Of a DNA stretch of 64,000 bases, positions 14,734-51,300 are shown one piece after another. The DNA is taken from assembly GCF_000313135.1 (NCBI RefSeq), contig NW_004457368.1, positions 6,218 through 70,217 on the forward strand, given 5' to 3'. Under the pieces are notes generated by a model that saw only the letters and a program-made list of their open reading frames with translations, made no database searches and had not been told where the DNA came from. Every line of letters begins with the position of its first letter. Positions within the stretch are counted from its first letter, which is position 1. Origin of the DNA: Acanthamoeba castellanii str. Neff. Lineage: Eukaryota > Discosea > Longamoebia > Acanthamoebidae. Made by a program: the position numbers and the translations under genes.

Positions 14734-15117
14734 GCCCCCAGCACCGAAGAGACAAAATAAACCCCCTTTGGTGGCCGTCCCCCAGGTAAAGGTATTGACT
14801 ACCTTGAGATGATGGCCTGTGGGTCGTGGCTGCCCATTGCTGCCGCCCCAAGACACACGCCACACACAGAAGTGAGGAACAGGTGGCTTTGAATATATGG
14901 AATTCCTTGTGTCGACAGAAATTTAAGTCCGCTGAGCCGAAAAGATCTTTTTTTCGTGGCGGCAACCACCGTTCGCACGAAAAGATGGAAGAAAGAATGA
15001 ATGGCGCAGGATAGCCGAATACTGTGTGCTCAAATAGCCACGGGCAGGCGAGGCTTCAAACCAACTCAAGGCCTACCTCGAGGCAAGACAAGCAGCAACC
15101 AAACCACAGCAAACCAA
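14734..15117. other. Intergenic: UBR 3' flank and Rac upstream region
   Basis: No gene is seen. From about 14915 to 15117 the sequence is clearly homologous, in reverse orientation, to 47671-47885 upstream of the second Rac copy, including the shared block GTGGCGGCAACCA. It therefore marks the left part of a segmental duplication and probably holds the Rac promoter. Confidence 0.6.
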
Positions 15118-15732
15118 ATGGCTGAGTATCAGGCGATCAAGTGCGTGGCGGTGGGCGACGGTGCGGTGGGCAAGACGTGCCTGCTCATCTCCTACACGAC
15201 CAACGCCTTCCCGGGCGAGTACGTGCCCACGATTTTCGACAATTACTCGGCCAACGTGTTCTACAACAATCGCAAGGTCATCAATCTCGGCCTCTGGGAC
15301 ACGGCCGGCCAGGAGGAGTACGACCGCCTGCGCCCGCTGTCCTATCCGCACACCGACGTCTTCATGCTCTGCTACTCGGCCGTCAATCCCGTGTCGCTGG
15401 CCAACATCAAGCAAAAGTGGCTGCCCGAGGTGCGCCACCACTGCCCCGAGGCGCCCATCCTACTCGTCGCCACCAAGAGCGACCTGCGCGACGACCACCG
15501 CGTGGTGGCCGAGCTGCGGGCCAAGCTGCCGCCGGGCGTCGAGCCGTGCGTGGCCACCGAGCAGGGCCGCAAGCTGGCCGACGAGATCGGGGCCGCCGCG
15601 TTCGTCGAGTGCTCGGCCCGAACGCAGGACAACCTCACCCTCGTCTTCAACGAGGCCATCCGCGTCGCCCTCGAGCCGCCGCCTGCCAAGAAGAAGAGCG
15701 GCAAGCGCGAGAAGAAGTGCTCCCTCTTCTAG
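15118..15732 (+). CDS. Rac/Rho-family small GTPase
   Basis: An intronless 204-residue Rho GTPase, predicted to switch actin organisation and NADPH-oxidase-type effectors at membranes. All G motifs are intact: P-loop GDGAVGKT (13-20), switch [10 protein letters not shown] (35-43), DTAGQEEYD (61-69), TKSD (119-122) and CSA (165-167). The tail is polybasic ([10 protein letters not shown]) and ends in a CAAX box, CSLF, for prenylation. The start at 15118 gives [15 protein letters not shown], the expected Rac N-terminus. The ORF contains about 75 CpG dinucleotides by hand count, typical of this genome. A duplicated copy at 47053-47670 on the other strand has lost every one. This copy is the likely functional gene. 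Confidence 0.97.
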
Positions 15733-15934
15733 AAAAGGGCACCCGCCACTACATTCTACAACCCGCCTGTACATACGAAGAGAAGAGGAAAAGGAGAGAG
15801 AAAGCTGCAGCAAGACACTCGAGGAGACGATGATGAACCTCCAATTTTGTAACATGGTCTGGCAGCTCAGAACACTACAATACAATCAGATAGTGGTATA
15901 GTACTCCTATGATCATACCTCTGTCACACTACGT

Positions 15935-21450: not shown

Positions 21451-24400
21451 ATGGAGACGGCGGTGAATCTGTTGATTCGACCCCCGCGCAATGAGTACCT
21501 GCCCTCCCAATTGGGACCCACCCAATTCACCATCGCTGGTCGACGCTACAAGCGACATGATTTAGAAGTACGTACTGGACCCCTTCCGCCCTTCCACTTC
21601 CCAGCCTCCTCACCCACTACTCTCTCCCTCGTGTGGTGCAGTTGGTGAACCCGCGCAACCTGCGGCTCCGCTGCAGCCATTGGGAGCCCGTGGCCGAGGA
21701 GCGGCCAAGCAAGCGCATGGGGTGCGTCATCTACCTGCACGGCAACAGCGGCTCGCGCATGGATGCCGCGGAGAACGTCGTCATGCTCCTCCACTCCTTC
21801 CGCCTGACCTACTTCGCCTTCGACTTTGCCGGAGCCGGGCAGTCCGAAGGTCTCTGCTTGACCCATCCACCGATCCGGCTCAGCACACATGCAATCGCTA
21901 AACGGAGAGTGTGCGTGTCGTGCGTCGTGTGTTGCAGGCAAGTACATTTCGCTCGGCTATCATGAACAGGACGACGTGGCGACGGTGCTGGCCTACCTCA
22001 AGTCCACCGACACAGTCTCCAATATTTGTACGTCTCCCGCGTGCGGTGTGTGTATGCGTCTGCTGACGACCAATGATGATTGTTGTTTCTTTGTATGTGT
22101 GTAGGTCTGTGGGGACGCAGCATGGGTGCAGTGACGGCGTTGATGTACACGGCCAAAGCCGAGGAGAGGCGCGCGGAAGGCGAGGAGGGGGTGATGGTGC
22201 CGGCAACGCTCGTCCTCGATTCACCCTTCGCCAGTCTCCTCAAGCTCATTCCTGAGGTCGTCGACTCTGCTGATGGCAAAGGCCAATATGTACGCACTGC
22301 ATCCCTTGGTGAGCGCCGACAACAGTCGTGGCTGACGCGACACACGCGACACAGATTAAGCAAATACCGAAGAAGGTGGTGGGCGGACTGCTCGGATTGG
22401 GCATCCCGATTCTGCGCAAGGCTATCAAAGCACGCGCCGAGTTCGACATCTCCGACCTCGAGCCCATCGCAATGGCGCCCAAGTGCAGTGTCCCTGCCAT
22501 ATTTATTCAAGGTCTCACGTCCGGCCCCCAGCCACTGCCTGGCAGTGCTCTCGCTAACGCGCGCGGTGCATGTGCAGGTCGAAACGACACGTTAGTACGA
22601 CCGCACCACACGCAACTGCTGCACGAGGCCTATGGATCGAAGGTAAAGAGGCGGATAATGATCGAAGGTGGGCACAACACGGGCCGAAGCTCGCTGTGCT
22701 TCGAGGAAATCTCTTCCTTCCTCTTTTCGTCGTTCTTTGACGACGAAGGTACGACAGCTTCTTCTCTCTTTTCCTTGTCCGCGGTTGGTCACACATTCGA
22801 GTACTTATCCTCCGTTTGCACACGACAGAGCGCAAGACAATATCCGGTGTGGATGGCAGGTTNNNNNNNNNNNNNNNNNNNNNNNNNNNNNNNNNNNNNN
22901 NNNNNNNNNNNNNNNNNNTGAACAGGACGACGTGGCGACGGTGCTGGCGTACCTCAAGTCCACCGACACAGTCTCCAATATTTGTACGTCTCCCGCGTGC
23001 GGTGTGTGTATGCGTCTGCTGACGACCAACGATGATTTTTGTTTCTTTGTATGTGTGTAGGTCTGTGGGGACGCAGCATGGGTGCAGTGACGGCGTTGAT
23101 GTACACGGCCAAAGCCGAGGAGAGGCGCGCGGAAGGCGAGGAGGGGGTGATGGTGCCGGCAACGCTCGTCCTCGATTCACCCTTCGCCAGTCTCCTCAAG
23201 CTCATTCCTGAGGTCGTCGACTCTGCTGATGGCAAAGGCCAATATGTACGCACTGCATCCCTTGGTGAGCGCCGACAACAGTCCTGGCTGACGCGACACA
23301 CGCGACACAGATTAAGCAAATACCGAAGAAGGTGGTGGGCGGACTGCTCGGATTGGGCATCCCGATTCTGCGCAAGGCTATCAAAGCTCGCGCCGAGTTC
23401 GACATCTCCGACCTCGAGCCCATCGCAATGGCGCCCAAGTGCAGTGTCCCTGCCATATTTATTCAAGGTCTCGACCCTAAGATAATTACTTTTTCACCCC
23501 GCCATCGTGTTGACAGCACGTCCGGCCCCCAGCCACTGCCTGGCAGTGCTCTCGCTAACGCGCGCGGTGCATGTGCGGTGGTGCGTGTGCGTGTGCAGGT
23601 CGAAACGACACGTTAGTACGACCGCACCACACGCAACTGCTGCACGAGGCCTATGGATCGAAGGTAAAGAGGCGGATAATGATCGAAGGTGGGCACAACA
23701 CGGGCCGAAGCTCGCTGTGCTTCGAGGAAATCTCTTCCTTCCTCTTTTCTTCGTTCTTTGACGACGAAGGTACGACAGCTTCTTCTCTCTTTTCCGCGGT
23801 TGGTCACACTTTCGAGTACTGATCCTCCGTTGCACACGACAGAGCGCAAGACAATATCCGGTGTGGATGGCAGGTTCCCTCGTCTGCGTGTGAATCTGGA
23901 TGATCTGGGCGTGCCACATTTTATCTGTCGTGTACGCACACCTCCACTGCTTCACTTCGTCTCTCTAAGCATTGGTTTTCTTATCACATTCCCTCGTTTC
24001 TTCAATGGCCAGCGCTTGCCCTATCCCCTGCAGAAAGAGGAAGTCATCACGTTTGATTCTCTCGTCTCTGTTGCGATCGATCACGCCAGCGTGCAGCTTC
24101 AGCAGCCGTTCACTGGGGTATGTACTGGTCCAGTACACTTCTCTTTCTCTCATTCAGTGATGATGCTTTTCTCGCCGGTGTGGGTAATACTGTCGCTGCG
24201 TCGTGTCAATCGCATGCAGGTAAAAATCGGCGAGTACAAGCTGGGGAGCACCGACGATAACTATAACATTCTCGGGTATGGCGTGGAGGCGATCGGCGGA
24301 GAAAGCGACCAGAAGCTGTTCTACATGCGCGTGGCGGAACAGTACACGGACTCTGATATTATCCTGCTCTTTATTACCACTCGAGTACGTGCCACACCAT

Positions 24401-45602: not shown

Positions 45603-46556
45603 TCATTTGATCGTGAGGAACTTCTTGGCTCCGGCGGCGTGGCGGAGGGTGTAGACCTGCCGCCTCTTCCAGTCCGTCCCGACCGCCTTCTCGGACATGA
45701 CGTAGACGTCGCCGTGCTCGAGAAGGAGCTTCACGCGCTGCCCGACGGGCTTGGACTCGAGGAACCACTGGTAGTGCAGCGGCAGAGCGACGCCTGTGCG
45801 CACCGCCACGACCTTGCAGCGCTCGGCGTCACCGTGGAAGCCGATCCCGCACTTGCTGGGGTCAAAGTAGTAGTTGCCCTCGGCCACGAGCCCGCTGGCC
45901 TTGTCGCCCAGCAGGTCGACAAGCGCATCGCGCGTCTTCTTGAGGAGAGGCACTTGGTCAAAGGCCACGACGGTGCCCTTGCCGCTGTCGTAGTCCGGCG
46001 TCTGAGCTGACGCGGCGAAGCACAGGTTGTGGCGCGCGCGCTTCTCGACGACGCGGCCGTACATCTTGGCCTTGGAGTCCTTCTGGAGCCCGGCCTGCTC
46101 CTCGTGGAAGGCGTCGGCGTCGCCCATGAGGGCCTTGAGCCCGTTCCGGGCCACCAGCACGTAGGCGTCTTCTGCTTCTTGTTGCTGCTGTTGCTTCTTC
46201 TTTTTGGTTGTTGTTGTTGTTGTTTCGGCTTCAACACTTGAAGGAAGGGCCTCGTTGAGGTGGTGCAGCTCGACGGTGACGCCCTGCGCTTCGAACCAAG
46301 CCTTGGCCGTCTGGAGGTCCTCCAGCGTGAAGCCTTCGCTGGCCTTTTGGCCAAGGATCTGCATGCCGGCGTGGTTCTCGGCCTGGTCTCCAAATGTGAT
46401 CGTGAAGGTTTGCGAGTACACTACGCGCCTCCTCCTCTTCTTGTCGTCGTCGACGTCACATTGAGTGCTGCCACCGCCCCCCTGCTGCTCCTCTTCCTTT
46501 TCCTTCTCTGCTTCGTCCCTTTTGCGCTTTGTTGTGGTGTTGGCAGGGTCCTCCAT
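45603..46556 (-). CDS. Intronless AlkB-like/2OG-Fe(II) dioxygenase family protein
   Basis: A predicted 317-residue protein from ATG at 46556 to TGA at 45603. After a lysine- and glutamate-rich N-terminus it reads FTITFGDQAENHAGMQILG (about 46360-46415), YVLVARNGLKALMGDADAF (about 46110-46170), KRARHNLCF (about 46020-46050), GKGTVVAFDQVPLLKKTRDAL (about 45925-45990), then GIGFHGDAERCKVVAVRTG (about 45795-45850), LHYQWF, HGDVYVMSEKAVGTDWKRR and YTLRHAAGAKKF at the end. HGD plus the distal RHAAG histidine fit an Fe(II)-binding jelly roll. From memory, the closest relatives are uncharacterised proteins of algae, amoebae and giant DNA viruses. It has no introns in an intron-dense region. Substrate unknown. 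Confidence 0.68.
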   Translation of the reverse strand: MEDPANTTTKRKRDEAEKEKEEEQQGGGGSTQCDVDDDKKRRRRVVYSQTFTITFGDQAENHAGMQILGQKASEGFTLEDLQTAKAWFEAQGVTVELHHLNEALPSSVEAETTTTTTKKKKQQQQQEAEDAYVLVARNGLKALMGDADAFHEEQAGLQKDSKAKMYGRVVEKRARHNLCFAASAQTPDYDSGKGTVVAFDQVPLLKKTRDALVDLLGDKASGLVAEGNYYFDPSKCGIGFHGDAERCKVVAVRTGVALPLHYQWFLESKPVGQRVKLLLEHGDVYVMSEKAVGTDWKRRQVYTLRHAAGAKKFLTIK

Positions 46557-47052
46557 CCTCTTCTTCTTCTTTTTCGGCAATATGAAAGTGCTTTGCGAAT
46601 CGCTCCTTTATATTAAAGTGGTGGGTTTCCTGGTATTGCTATTTTTTTCCTGGAAAAGTTTGGCTTAATTCTAAGTAATCACCTGGTCTCACCCCTGCCC
46701 ATGAGCTCCGGTGTTCGCCTGCTCAGTAGCTCCAGTGTGGCCTGGCTTGTCCTACTCTAGACTGATCACAGATCTGACAACAGCAAGAGTGATCAGGATG
46801 GTGAGCAGGAACAGGCAGTGTGAATACTTGGTGGATGTGTCTTTGACTCCTGGGCCTATGGAGGAAAACAGGGGGAGTGATCAGTTGATGGTAGGTACTA
46901 CTGGGGTCTTTCATTTGATTGTATTGGAGGGTACTGAGCAGACCATGTTACAAAATTGGAGTTTATCATCTCCTCATGTGTGCTTGCTGCAGCTGTCTCT
47001 CTCCTCTTCCTCTTCTTCATATGTACAGGCAGGTAGTGGTGGGTCCACTTTT
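46557..47052. other. Intergenic: dioxygenase upstream region and 3' flank of the second Rac copy
   Basis: No gene is seen. From about 46900 to 47052 the sequence, read on the minus strand, is homologous to the Rac 3' flank at 15733-15900 (shared block CCAATTTTGTAACATGGTCTG appears in both, split here by a few changes). From 46718 onward it contains no CpG at all. Confidence 0.6.
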
Positions 47053-47739
47053 CTAGAAGAGGGAGCACTTCTTCTCATGCTTGCCACTCTTCTTCTTCTT
47101 GGCAGGTGGCAGCTTGAGGGCAACACAGATGGCCTCATTGAAGATGAGGGTGAGGTTGTCCTGCATCCAGGCCAAGCACTTGATGAATGTGGTGGCCCTG
47201 ATCTCATTGGCCAGCTTGTGGCCCTGCTTGGTGGCCATGCATGGCTTGACACCCAGCAGCAGCTTGGCCTGCAGCTTGGCCACCATGTGGTGGTTGTTGT
47301 GCAGGTTGCTCTTGGTGGTGACAAGTAGGATGGGTGCCTTGGGGCAGTGGTGGTGCACCTTGGGCAGCCACTTTTGCTTGATGTTGGCCAGTGACACAGG
47401 ATTGATGGCTGAGTAGCAGAGCATGAAGATGTTGGTGTGTGGGTAGGACAGTGGGTGCAGGTGGTTGTACTCCTCCTGGCTGGCTGTGTCCCATAGGCTG
47501 AGATTGATGACCTTGTGATTGTTGTAGAACATGTTGGCTGAGTAATTGTTGAAGATTGTGGGCATGTACTCACCTGGGAAGGTGTTGGTTGTGTAGGAGA
47601 TGAGCAGGCATGTCTTGCCCACTGCACTGTTGCCCACCACCACACACTTGATCACCTGATACTCAGCCATTTGGTTTGCTGTGGTTTGGTTGCTGCTTAT
47701 CTTGTCTCAAGGCCACTCATTGGTTTGAATGTTGAGCCT
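46718..47739. other. 1,022-bp tract without a single CpG
   Basis: Reading every base from 46718 to 47739, no CG dinucleotide occurs on either strand, although the genome is GC- and CpG-rich. The tract covers the second Rac copy, its 3' flank and about 70 bp upstream of its start. CpG reappears at 47740 upstream of the gene and at 46716 on the other side. Confidence 0.97.
47053..47670 (-). CDS. CpG-depleted Rac GTPase paralogue, probably inactive
   Basis: A full-length 205-residue frame aligns end to end with the Rac protein at 15118-15732. Nearly every difference is a C-to-T or G-to-A change at a former CpG. Key residues are hit: P-loop GDGAVGKT is GNSAVGKT, switch I is YMPTIFNNY, DTAGQ is DTASQ, TKSD is TKSN, and CSAR is CLAW. 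From known small-GTPase biology these would disturb GTP hydrolysis, the G60-type switch and guanine specificity, so normal switching is unlikely. The CAAX box CSLF and the basic tail survive. The only in-frame CGA (Arg) of the parent, which would become TGA, is TGG here, so no stop arose. The duplication includes flanks on both sides, so it was DNA-mediated. Confidence 0.9.
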   Translation of the reverse strand: MAEYQVIKCVVVGNSAVGKTCLLISYTTNTFPGEYMPTIFNNYSANMFYNNHKVINLSLWDTASQEEYNHLHPLSYPHTNIFMLCYSAINPVSLANIKQKWLPKVHHHCPKAPILLVTTKSNLHNNHHMVAKLQAKLLLGVKPCMATKQGHKLANEIRATTFIKCLAWMQDNLTLIFNEAICVALKLPPAKKKKSGKHEKKCSLF

Positions 47740-47885
47740 CGCCTGCCCTTGGCTATTTGAGCACACAGTATTCGGCTATCCTACCCATTCATTCTTCTCT
47801 CCATCTTTTCGTGCAAATGCTGGTTGCCGCCACGAAAAAAATCTTTTTGGCTCAGCGGACTTTGTTGGGCCGTGAAATTTCTGTG
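47671..47885 (-). repeat. Duplicated Rac upstream flank
   Basis: On the minus strand it matches 14915-15117, including TAGCCGAATACTGTGTGCTC and GTGGCGGCAACCA, with small indels. Unlike the gene body, from 47740 outward it keeps CpG sites, so CpG loss stopped at the promoter. Confidence 0.85.
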
Positions 47886-48194
47886 AAGCATTTCCAGTCG
47901 ACAGGATTTAAAACATTAATAATTATTTACACGCAGCGAGCTGCTTGCGTGCGCATGAAGGAGTGCTTCCCTTTCCATGTCCAGAGGTTTGTGTGGTAGA
48001 GAGTTTGATTGGCGCCTCTGTGAGCCCTGCGGTTTTGAGTTTTTTGGGCTTGTCTGCTTGCATGAAGGAACCAACCATTTTGCTTGTTCCTTGATCCATG
48101 GTGTCAAACTAAACTCAAAAGGCCACGTTTGCCACAGGGACGACCCTCACAATCGGAGAAAGGCCAGGCCTGGTAGTTCTCTGGTAGACCAGTA
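47886..48194. other. Unassigned interval beside the Rac duplicate
   Basis: No convincing gene. A low-complexity TTTTGAGTTTTTTGGG stretch is near 48033. It keeps scattered CpGs, unlike the Rac gene body. Confidence 0.4.
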
Positions 48195-48245
48195 CTCCTT
48201 GATGTAGTTTTCATAGGCCTGCTTGACCTTTTGCTTGCTGTAGTG
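48195..48245 (-). pseudogene. 51-bp fragment of the UBR ligase winged-helix exon
   Basis: The minus strand reads HYSKQKVKQAYENYIKE. It aligns with HYSKQKVEKAYENYIEQ at 9728-9778 in the UBR gene with 45 of 51 identical bases by eye. All three CpGs of the parent segment are lost here. Homology is not obvious on either side, so only a relic remains. It lies about 525 bp upstream of the CpG-free Rac copy. Confidence 0.6.
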
Positions 48246-48300
48246 GACAACCCTTTCTCTCAATCTTGTTTCTTTCGTTCCTTCCTTCACTCCCCACTAC

Positions 48301-51300
48301 TCAATCATCAAAGTCAAGTCGCTTGGCGTTGGCCCGAGGCTTGTTGTTCTCCTTGTCCTCCCTCGTGGTGCTGGTGGTGGCCTTCTTGCTGGCGCTAGTG
48401 GGGGCGTGCTTCCGTGTGGCGGAGGCTCGCAGCGAAGAAGACGAGACCGCCGCGGGTGAGGGGAGAGGCCTGCTGGAAGAAGAGGTGGTGGTGGTCTTGC
48501 GCTGGGGCGTGGCCGCGATGAGTGCCGAAGACGACGCGGGCGAGGCTGCCAGCCTGCGCATGCGGGTCTTCTCAATCACCCGCGAGTAGACGGTCACCGG
48601 CGGCGTGAAGGCGTTGAGCGCCGTGTCGACGATCGATTCGCGCGGCCTTCTGCGCCTCGCGGGCGGCGCGCTCCCCGTCACCACCTCCCGCTTCGTCTTC
48701 GCTTCTTCTTCCGCTCCTCCTCTCGTTCGCGGTTGGCTTGCCGGGGTGTATGCGGCCTCACCCGCGCCACCGTCAGCGCCGCCCTTCACGAGGTCGCGAG
48801 CGCCTTCATCGTCGCCCTCGTCGTCAGAGTTTTGATTCTTGAGATGTCGCGCAGCCCTGTGGAATGACGAGCGTCACATTTGTTTCGTGTTAAAAGCTTT
48901 TAACCAGTGCAGGCAGAGGTGCGGGAGGGCGTACTCCTTGGCCTGCTGCTTGGCGACGGCCGAGGACTCGACGGCCTGGGTCTTGCTGAAGAGGAGGTCG
49001 TGGTCGCTGATGCCGTGCACGCCGCCGATCTCGTGCAGGTACTGGATGTGCCGGTCGGTGTACTCGTCGGTGACCCGCTCGTGGGCGTGGAGGGCGTGGA
49101 GGTCCTTCTGGGTCTGGGCCACGCGGGGATCGCCCAGGTGGAAAAGGTCGGTCAGCTCCTCCCGCGAGAAGTACCGCAGCGACGACTTCTGCGTCATTGT
49201 GCTCTGGACGATCGCTCCCTTGAACCTGTACACGGCCAAGGCACGAGTGAGCCACATGCACACATAGGTGTGCACTTAAAGACCGCCTCTAGAGGAATTA
49301 GGGCACGCACACTTGGCGTCGGTAGATCTTCTCTTCGATGGTGCCGCAAGTGATGAGACGGTACACGATCACGTTCTTCTTCTGACCCAAGCGGAATGCC
49401 CTGCAGACCGCCTGATATATAGAGTTGCCACGGTCCATGAAAAAACGTAGGTTGCGTGTCGCAAGCGTGCGTGGTGTCATTCGTACCTGGTTGTCGTGCG
49501 TCGGATTCCAAGAGGGATCGACAATCACTACACGGTCGGCGCCGGTGAGATTGAGTCCGATTCCGCCCACCACCGTGGTGAGGAGGAAGCAGAAATAGCT
49601 CGGGTCGGAGTTGAAGAGCTCCACCCTACGCTGGCGCTCGTCGGACTTGGAGATGGAGCCGTCGATGCGCAGGAACGAGTAGTCACCCTCGCGGAGCAGC
49701 AGTTCGATGATGTTGAGCATCTTGCGCGACTGCGAGAAGACCAGCACGCGGCTGCCCTCCTCGCGCAGCTTGGGCAGGAGTCGCATGAGGAAGACCAGCT
49801 TGGCCGAGATCTGGTGCACGCACTCCCGTCGCTTGCGCAGGAAGCACTCGCGCCAGCTGGCCTCCTTGGGCGGAATCGGTATCTCCTTCCCCACGTCCTC
49901 CGTGTCTGCGCCCTCGTCGGTTGCGCCGTCGTCAGCGTCGCTCTCGGACTCGTCGGCTTCAGCGTTGTCGGGCGTAGGGTGGATGTTGTAGGCCATACGG
50001 CGGGCCTCGCGAGCCTCTTCCTTGGCCCGTTGGGCCTCCCGCCTCGCGGCGTTGGCCAGCGCCATGGCCTGGAGGTCGCGACCTCGAGCATCGACGAAGG
50101 ACTGGTGCCGGCACAGGGGGAACCACAGAGCGTCGTCGCTGGCCACCTGCCTCCAGTGGCTGCAGACCAGCATCAGCCTGGACACCTCCACCACGTCGTT
50201 GAGGCCGCACGCGAACCCGAAGATTCGCAGCTTGACCTCGTGCGGCAGCCGAGTGTTGAATTCGTCGACCGCGAGACGCCGGCCACCTGAGATTTCAGTC
50301 TTGACCTTGGCCTTGATGAGCGGCTTCCGCTTGGCCGCCTGACGCGTCACGGGAAGATGGTCGACCTCTTCATCCTCATCTTCGCTTTCGCTCTCCTCCG
50401 CTGCGTCGTCTTCGTCTTCGTCATCGCTTGTTGCGCGAGTGTTACGCTTGGCCGCTCTCTTAGGTTTCTCGCTATCTTCGTCATCCTCTTGCTTGTCGCG
50501 GAGCCAATCCTTAAAGCCGCTGCGCAAGAGAGGAAACTTAGCGCTTGCATTGCGTGCGTGCGGGCATGTATACGGGAGCGAGAGAGGATACGCACCATGT
50601 GGCCAGCAGCTCGGCATCCACGGCTTCCGCGTTCTTGGCGGTGAGAAGACGAGGGTGGTCGCAGAGCTTCTTCAGCAGGACCAAACCCTCGAGCACGTTC
50701 TTGGTCGTGGCCAGCACGTTTTTGACCTGGTCCGATGCGAGGAAGCTGCGATAGAGCTTCTCCTGAACCTGTAGTTGCGCACGCACGCGCACATTGAACT
50801 ACGGATGAGCGACTAGGCAATATAGGGCTTGTAAGGGAAGTGCCGACGGACCGGGCTGAGACTGAGCCACACGATGAAGTCGTTCATCCGAGTGGTAAGT
50901 GCTTGCTGCTGCCTTTCCTCCGAGGAAGATGGAGAAGGCGACGACTGGTCACCCGCGTCGGCCTTGGAAGCGCTGCCGTTGGTGTTGAACACGTCCTTCT
51001 TCTCGCGGCGCAGGAAATGGGGCGCCAGAATATGACGCAGCTGCTTCGACAGCTCGTGTGACTGGTCGCCAATATGCACGCAAGAGAGGTGAGCCGGCGT
51101 GACACCACATCTCCCGCAGCGTGTAGGTGAAAGGGCATGGGAAGACGTACGAGCTGCTTCTCCTCGGCCGAGGCGCACTTGTAGGTGGCATATTTGATGG
51201 GCTGTTCGAACTGGCGACCAAACTGGTGGATGGTGCCCAACAGCTGACCCTTGCACGTGTAATCGAAGAGGGACCACAGTTCCTGTATTCCCGTTACGTA

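Follow-up and report, generated by a model that had tools for sequence, protein, structure and literature searches.

A Rac gene duplicate without CpG in Acanthamoeba castellanii Neff and a probable RIP-like hypermutation of silenced DNA

In vertebrate pseudogenes, methylated CpG decays to TpG or CpA in DNA that is not under selection, with an approximately tenfold excess of change at CpG. RIP is described as a fungal-specific process (PMC2621366), and in Neurospora 91.9% of RIP mutation clusters consist purely of C-to-T or purely of G-to-A changes, which the authors of that study read as one strand being mutated per round (PMC7296669). Single-copy linker DNA adjoining Neurospora repeats is also mutated, in a DIM-2-dependent manner (PMC11969663), and in Rhizoctonia solani AG8 CpG is changed to TpG in repeats as well as in genes (PMC4014442). 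Repressive CpG methylation is present on retroelements and silent genes of the Acanthamoeba castellanii strains Neff and C3 (PMC12344493, PMC12210455); by EM-seq, 5mC in Neff is confined to CpG and covers 381 genes, most of them silent, as well as young LINE and LTR copies, together with H3K9 methylation (PMC12344493), and methylome, histone and Hi-C data for Neff are published. The main texts of these two Acanthamoeba reports contain no match to 'RIP', and 'deaminat' matches 0 and 1 times respectively, the single instance being in a reference. Judged by titles and the opening parts of abstracts, our searches of open-licence PMC papers brought up none on such a process in Amoebozoa.

Here we describe a locus in a 64,000-nucleotide stretch of the Neff genome (contig NW_004457368.1; hereafter the window, with positions counted from its first nucleotide) and compare it with the genome at large, searched as 38.4 Mb in 250 contigs. 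The pattern resembles Neurospora crassa RIP (RID and DIM-2 routes) in being C-to-T only, clustered and laid down one strand at a time (PMC7296669), and in acting on repeats with an apparent link to 5mC; as in DIM-2-dependent mutation (PMC11969663), the affected tract covers apparently single-copy DNA, here 196 bp of it. It shares its CpG context with the CpG-biased RIP-like hypermutation of basidiomycetes, but it is nearly exclusive and saturating, whereas in R. solani AG8 the bias towards CpG is moderate, at about 40% of C-to-T (PMC4014442). The CpG-only context and the occurrence on retroelements and silent genes are shared with the repressive 5mC of A. castellanii, for which the published work describes methylation.

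A Rac duplicate emptied of CpG

The window has a GC content of 58.6% and a CpG observed/expected ratio of 1.00, and contains a tract of 1,022 bp with no CpG, bordered by CpGs at 46716 and 47740; nowhere else in the window does a CpG gap exceed 158. Given the C and G that it contains, the tract should have about 65 CpGs, and the Poisson chance of finding none is about 5e-29. The CpG-free island is narrow, since the observed/expected ratios beside it are 0.96 (46001-46500), 0.55 (48001-48500) and 1.25 (48501-49000). Within it is a second, inverted copy of a Rac gene, the parent of which is found elsewhere in the window. The features of the two loci are as follows.

46718..47739, no strand: CpG-free tract, a CpG gap of 1,022 bp
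47053..47670, minus strand: Rac copy CDS, 205 aa, open frame, 0 CpG (Pfam Ras PF00071, E=2.6e-38)
15118..15732, plus strand: parent Rac CDS, 204 aa, 75 CpG (Pfam Ras, E=2.3e-47)
14915..15891, plus strand: duplicated segment, parent side, homologous to 47884-46913
46913..47884, minus strand: duplicated segment, copy side, inverted, homologous to the parent
46717..46912, minus strand: 3' part of the tract beyond the homology, 196 bp, at the tract's downstream end; a genome search gave no second copy
47741..47884, minus strand: 5' homologous flank outside the tract, 6/10 parental CpGs kept in the alignment with the parent

All 81 parental CpGs that align inside the tract have been lost (75 in the CDS, 5 in the 3' flank and 1 in the 5' flank), whereas the homologous 5' flank beyond the tract has lost 4/10 (Fisher P=3e-7). 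The borders of tract and duplication differ, the first 144-145 bp or so of the upstream homology lying outside the tract. At non-CpG positions the parent and the copy differ at 4/465 sites of the CDS, 11/173 of the 5' flank and 10/129 of the 3' flank, and the flanks bear substitutions and indels of their own. The 75 CpGs of the parental CDS, all still present in the parent itself, have without exception undergone transitions in the copy, 55 to CA and 20 to TG on the coding strand, with TA at none of the 75 sites; transitions also make up 78 of the 79 substitutions in the CDS as a whole. Among the 254 C/G sites of the CDS that are not part of a CpG, none shows C-to-T or G-to-A. The rate of change of a CpG cytosine is at least 84-fold that of all other sites and at least 140-fold that of transitions at other C/G sites (95% bounds), unlike the roughly tenfold excess in the decay of vertebrate pseudogenes.

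The original prediction had given about 75 CpGs for the parent CDS, none for the copy and 1,022 bp for the tract, and these figures prove exact. It had further attributed almost all the protein changes to the conversion of CpG to TpG or CpA, described the non-CpG sites as well conserved, and placed the end of CpG loss upstream of the start codon with CpG retained in the homologous flank; alignment of the two loci, with CpG and non-CpG changes counted separately (75/75 lost versus 4/465), bears out the observation. The motifs that it held to be altered are altered as well: GDGAVGKT of the P-loop reads GNSAVGKT in the copy, DTAG reads DTAS, TKSD (the TKxD motif) reads TKSN, and SAR (the SA motif) reads LAW. 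The C-terminal CSLF is retained.

The choice between CA and TG is blind to the protein, and the copy was therefore unconstrained when it was hit. CA was the outcome at 9/11 sites in codon phase 1, 15/22 in phase 2 and 31/42 in phase 3; in this last group TG is always silent, yet 31 sites took the protein-changing CA, and CA was taken at 15 of the 22 sites where CA is the silent outcome. An earlier period of protein constraint is suggested by the zero-fold non-CpG sites, which differ at 0/312 positions as against 21/302 in the flanks (four-fold sites, 2/63). The open frame of the copy is no evidence of use. G-to-A after C cannot create a stop and C-to-T creates one from CGA only, and the parent has a single in-frame CGA, which reads TGG in the copy, so that an open frame needs no selection; together with the codon-phase outcomes, this rules out selection as the reason for it. 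The copy has probably ceased to function as a gene; the frame has stayed open because CpG transitions hardly make stops.

Sequence context does not set the strand either, since sites with the same base preceding C on both strands gave 15 CA to 1 TG; with the phase counts, this excludes both the adjacent bases and the codon phase as the source of the strand bias. No base preference adjoining CpG stands out at the lost sites of the CDS.

Strand runs in young copies and CpG loss in retroelements

The CA and TG outcomes in the Rac copy fall into runs, of which there are 24 where 36.9 are expected (P=0.0007). Expectations were obtained by shuffling outcomes while keeping each copy's TG/CA totals, and constant strand bias therefore does not explain the runs. 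Nine copies were tested in this way and four survive correction for nine tests, namely the Rac copy and the retroelement copies L033 (16 observed, 25.4 expected, P=0.0012), L034 (40 and 60.5, P=0.00004) and L032 (9 and 18.1, P=0.0011). L037 (80 and 92.9, P=0.03) shows weak runs that are not significant after correction, and there are no strand runs in L042 (13 and 15.9, P=0.16), in L043 (7 and 9.7, P=0.11), or in the CpG-rich (6 and 6.5, P=0.47) and CpG-poor (48 and 46.4, P=0.67) copies of a host duplicate on contig C124 that is described below. The older retroelement pairs L020/L025, L035/L039, L018/L031 and L015/L017 also lack strand runs; opposite-loss columns are clustered in L035/L039 (P=0.0076). 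Young copies carry same-strand runs, unlike ordinary methylated-CpG decay, in which none are expected, and older copies are compatible with independent sites.

Seven retroelement pairs were compared, only two of which are below 1% non-CpG divergence. L033 and L034 align without a gap over 3,378 bp and differ at 5 of 2,738 non-CpG sites (CpG columns and columns with TG opposite CA being left out). L033 has lost 80 CpGs and L034 149, with opposite strand bias: 15 TG to 65 CA in the former and 108 to 41 in the latter (Fisher 3e-15). As this is one sequence compared in one direction, neither context, nor codons, nor the element's own transcription sets the strand, and the direction of that transcription is ruled out as a source of the bias. 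We note that L033 and L034 could be alleles and not separate insertions.

Depletion of CpG is widespread among retroelements. Thirty reverse-transcriptase loci (L015-L044) were taken, and removal of four that overlap others (L026, L039, L041 and L044) left 26 distinct loci with a median CpG observed/expected ratio of 0.42, 13 of which contain a CpG gap of at least 300; three loci, L021, L029 and L032, are without depletion, at ratios of 0.98 to 1.07. As a control we used 20 random stretches of 4 kb, from which L063, all N, was dropped; the remaining 19, three of them partly N and with 72,100 called bases in all, have a median ratio of 1.03, and one (L051) has a gap of at least 300, the longest gap in called DNA being 353. 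The frequency of CpG-free tracts in the genome is accordingly an estimate by sampling. Within the 31 reverse-transcriptase matches of the genome (the 30 loci and one further match), none of which lies on C172, the contig of the window, the in-frame stops number 23 TGA, 2 TAA and 0 TAG, a skew such as CGA to TGA would give; the stops encountered in a Rac-family search of the genome were 4 TGA, 4 TAA and 3 TAG.

Competing explanations and a possible mechanism

The origin of the gene from a CpG-poor organism, or selection against CpG, would account for the absence of CpG and nothing else, and we find either hardly credible: 461/465 non-CpG sites of the CDS equal the parent, 31/42 phase-3 sites took the protein-changing route, and the best 120 of 4,790 matches comprise the copy itself, a protein designated P0001 at 74% identity, and others all at 55% identity or less. 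Transfer from a CpG-poor Rac, which the original prediction had named as the finding that would speak against it, has left no sign and is ruled out, there being no relative closer than P0001 among these 120 matches. An artefact of sequencing or assembly, for example the miscalling of methylated C, is very improbable; nothing was found in its favor, TA occurs at none of the 75 sites, and the flanks show independent substitutions and indels. The published annotated Neff assembly was built from Illumina, 454 and Sanger reads (PMC4053784), and at 45.1 Mb it is presumably the source of the 38.4 Mb used here.

The remaining rivals invoke deamination of the copy itself. In passive decay, a silenced copy would be CpG-methylated and its 5mC deaminated site by site, with poor T:G repair and low replication error elsewhere. 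Consistent with poor repair, a search with one UDG-superfamily model gave no TDG-type enzyme and a single match (L075, C124:12459-12935), which has a TGA inside a UNG-type motif. Methylation of silenced DNA in Neff is confined to CpG (PMC12344493), and saturation alone could arise with time. We nonetheless consider passive decay rather unlikely, because independent sites give no strand runs even under constant strand bias, the shuffles having preserved the totals, and because the two copies of one sequence, L033 and L034, are biased in opposite directions; replication direction could give a copy-specific bias but not switches inside a copy. Such runs with switches, and outcomes free of protein selection, are what an AID/APOBEC-like deaminase would leave on single-stranded DNA (resection, R-loop or cDNA), with CpG singled out because the enzyme favors methylated C, or CpG itself. 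The strict CpG context, with 0/254 other C/G sites of the CDS showing C-to-T or G-to-A, and the lack of any outstanding preference for bases adjoining CpG make this distinctly improbable; a search with PF08210 (APOBEC_N) returned no match, but its controls were equally silent.

The explanation that we favor, and regard as probable, is that a Rac duplicate was silenced and then hit by RIP-like hypermutation of CpG, a process to which the retroelements of this genome are subject as well. A roughly 1-kb segment that includes the Rac gene was copied, in inverted orientation, to a site about 31 kb away. The copy would have been kept under protein constraint for a time, as its zero-fold sites suggest, before being silenced, the probable means being the CpG methylation and H3K9me3 described in Neff. 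Across some 1 kb, the C of CpG was converted to T in runs, each on a single strand, until every CpG had gone, perhaps in a burst of one or a few rounds. CpG methylation is not visible in the tract today because no CpG remains there. The likeliest candidate for the agent is a cytosine methyltransferase that belongs to the silencing pathway and serves as a mutator, or a deaminase acting on methylated or single-stranded DNA; profile searches give DNA methylase (PF00145) matches, at the level of family only, on the four contigs C215, C248, C94 and C155.

Duplication, inversion and the relation to RIP

Further tracts and duplicates bear on what may attract the process.

C124:404404-405563 and C124:408280-409540, inverted, 2.7 kb apart: second inverted host duplicate (L073, L074, L051)
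21963..22862, no strand: tandem duplicate control, first copy, 81 CpG
22919..23876, no strand: tandem duplicate control, second copy, 87 CpG, 8 mismatches to the first
C94:879809-880809 (positions about 500-1500 of L012): CpG-poor tract of about 1 kb, observed/expected 0.06-0.14 in 500-bp windows

One copy of the C124 inverted pair has CpG gaps of 733 and 353 and its partner is CpG-normal; of 115 CpGs in the rich copy, 78 read TG or CA in the poor copy and 3 are kept. With 162/885 non-CpG sites differing, the pair is an older case. The protein of this duplicate has a weak match to DUF7918, below the cut-off. Both copies of the tandem duplicate in the window (about 0.9-0.96 kb) are CpG-rich and have been spared, which rules out the notion that every duplicate is hit, but this duplicate may be too recent. 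The CpG-poor tract of L012 adjoins a DNA-methylase match, and the search found no second copy of it.

Two inverted host pairs, set against one spared tandem and one unpaired tract, suggest that duplication or inversion may play a role. The original prediction had spoken of a methylation-induced or RIP-like process aimed at duplicates. Its RIP-like element is favored over plain decay by the CpG specificity and the strand runs, and methylation at the locus is presumptive; the aim at duplicates gains from the second inverted host pair and loses from the spared tandem, the 196 bp of uncopied DNA and the unpaired L012 tract. As to its concern that CpG-free kilobases might be common in single-copy DNA, there are none in the 19 random stretches.

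The process works like RIP, yet we do not class it as RIP, because the parent is untouched, the tandem duplicate is spared and the context is CpG. Under fungal RIP both members of a duplicate should be mutated, whereas the parent Rac keeps its 75 CpGs and the C124 partner is CpG-normal; fungal RIP hits duplicates above a limit of size and identity, whereas the 0.9-kb tandem with 8 mismatches, if not too recent, has escaped. Fungal RIP also depends on RID or DIM-2 and on the sexual cycle. RIP in Neurospora is CpA-biased and the changes here are CpG-only, and the host belongs to Amoebozoa, not Fungi. More broadly, Amoebozoa may possess an active CpG mutator that works strand by strand and destroys retroelements that have been silenced, along with some host duplicates, likely through a methyltransferase of the silencing pathway and perhaps with inverted pairs as one trigger, a proposal that we consider evenly poised. 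If it is true, a RIP-like genome defence would operate outside Fungi, and the connection of cytosine methylation with targeted mutation would predate fungi or would have arisen again; it would also explain the death of duplicates and retroelements in a compact genome, and would provide a fossil record of past silencing legible in sequence alone.

Finally, we note that the Rac copy reads KKKK near its end, as does P0001 (a 98% relative), and the parent reads KKK; the parent probably lost one codon after the duplication.
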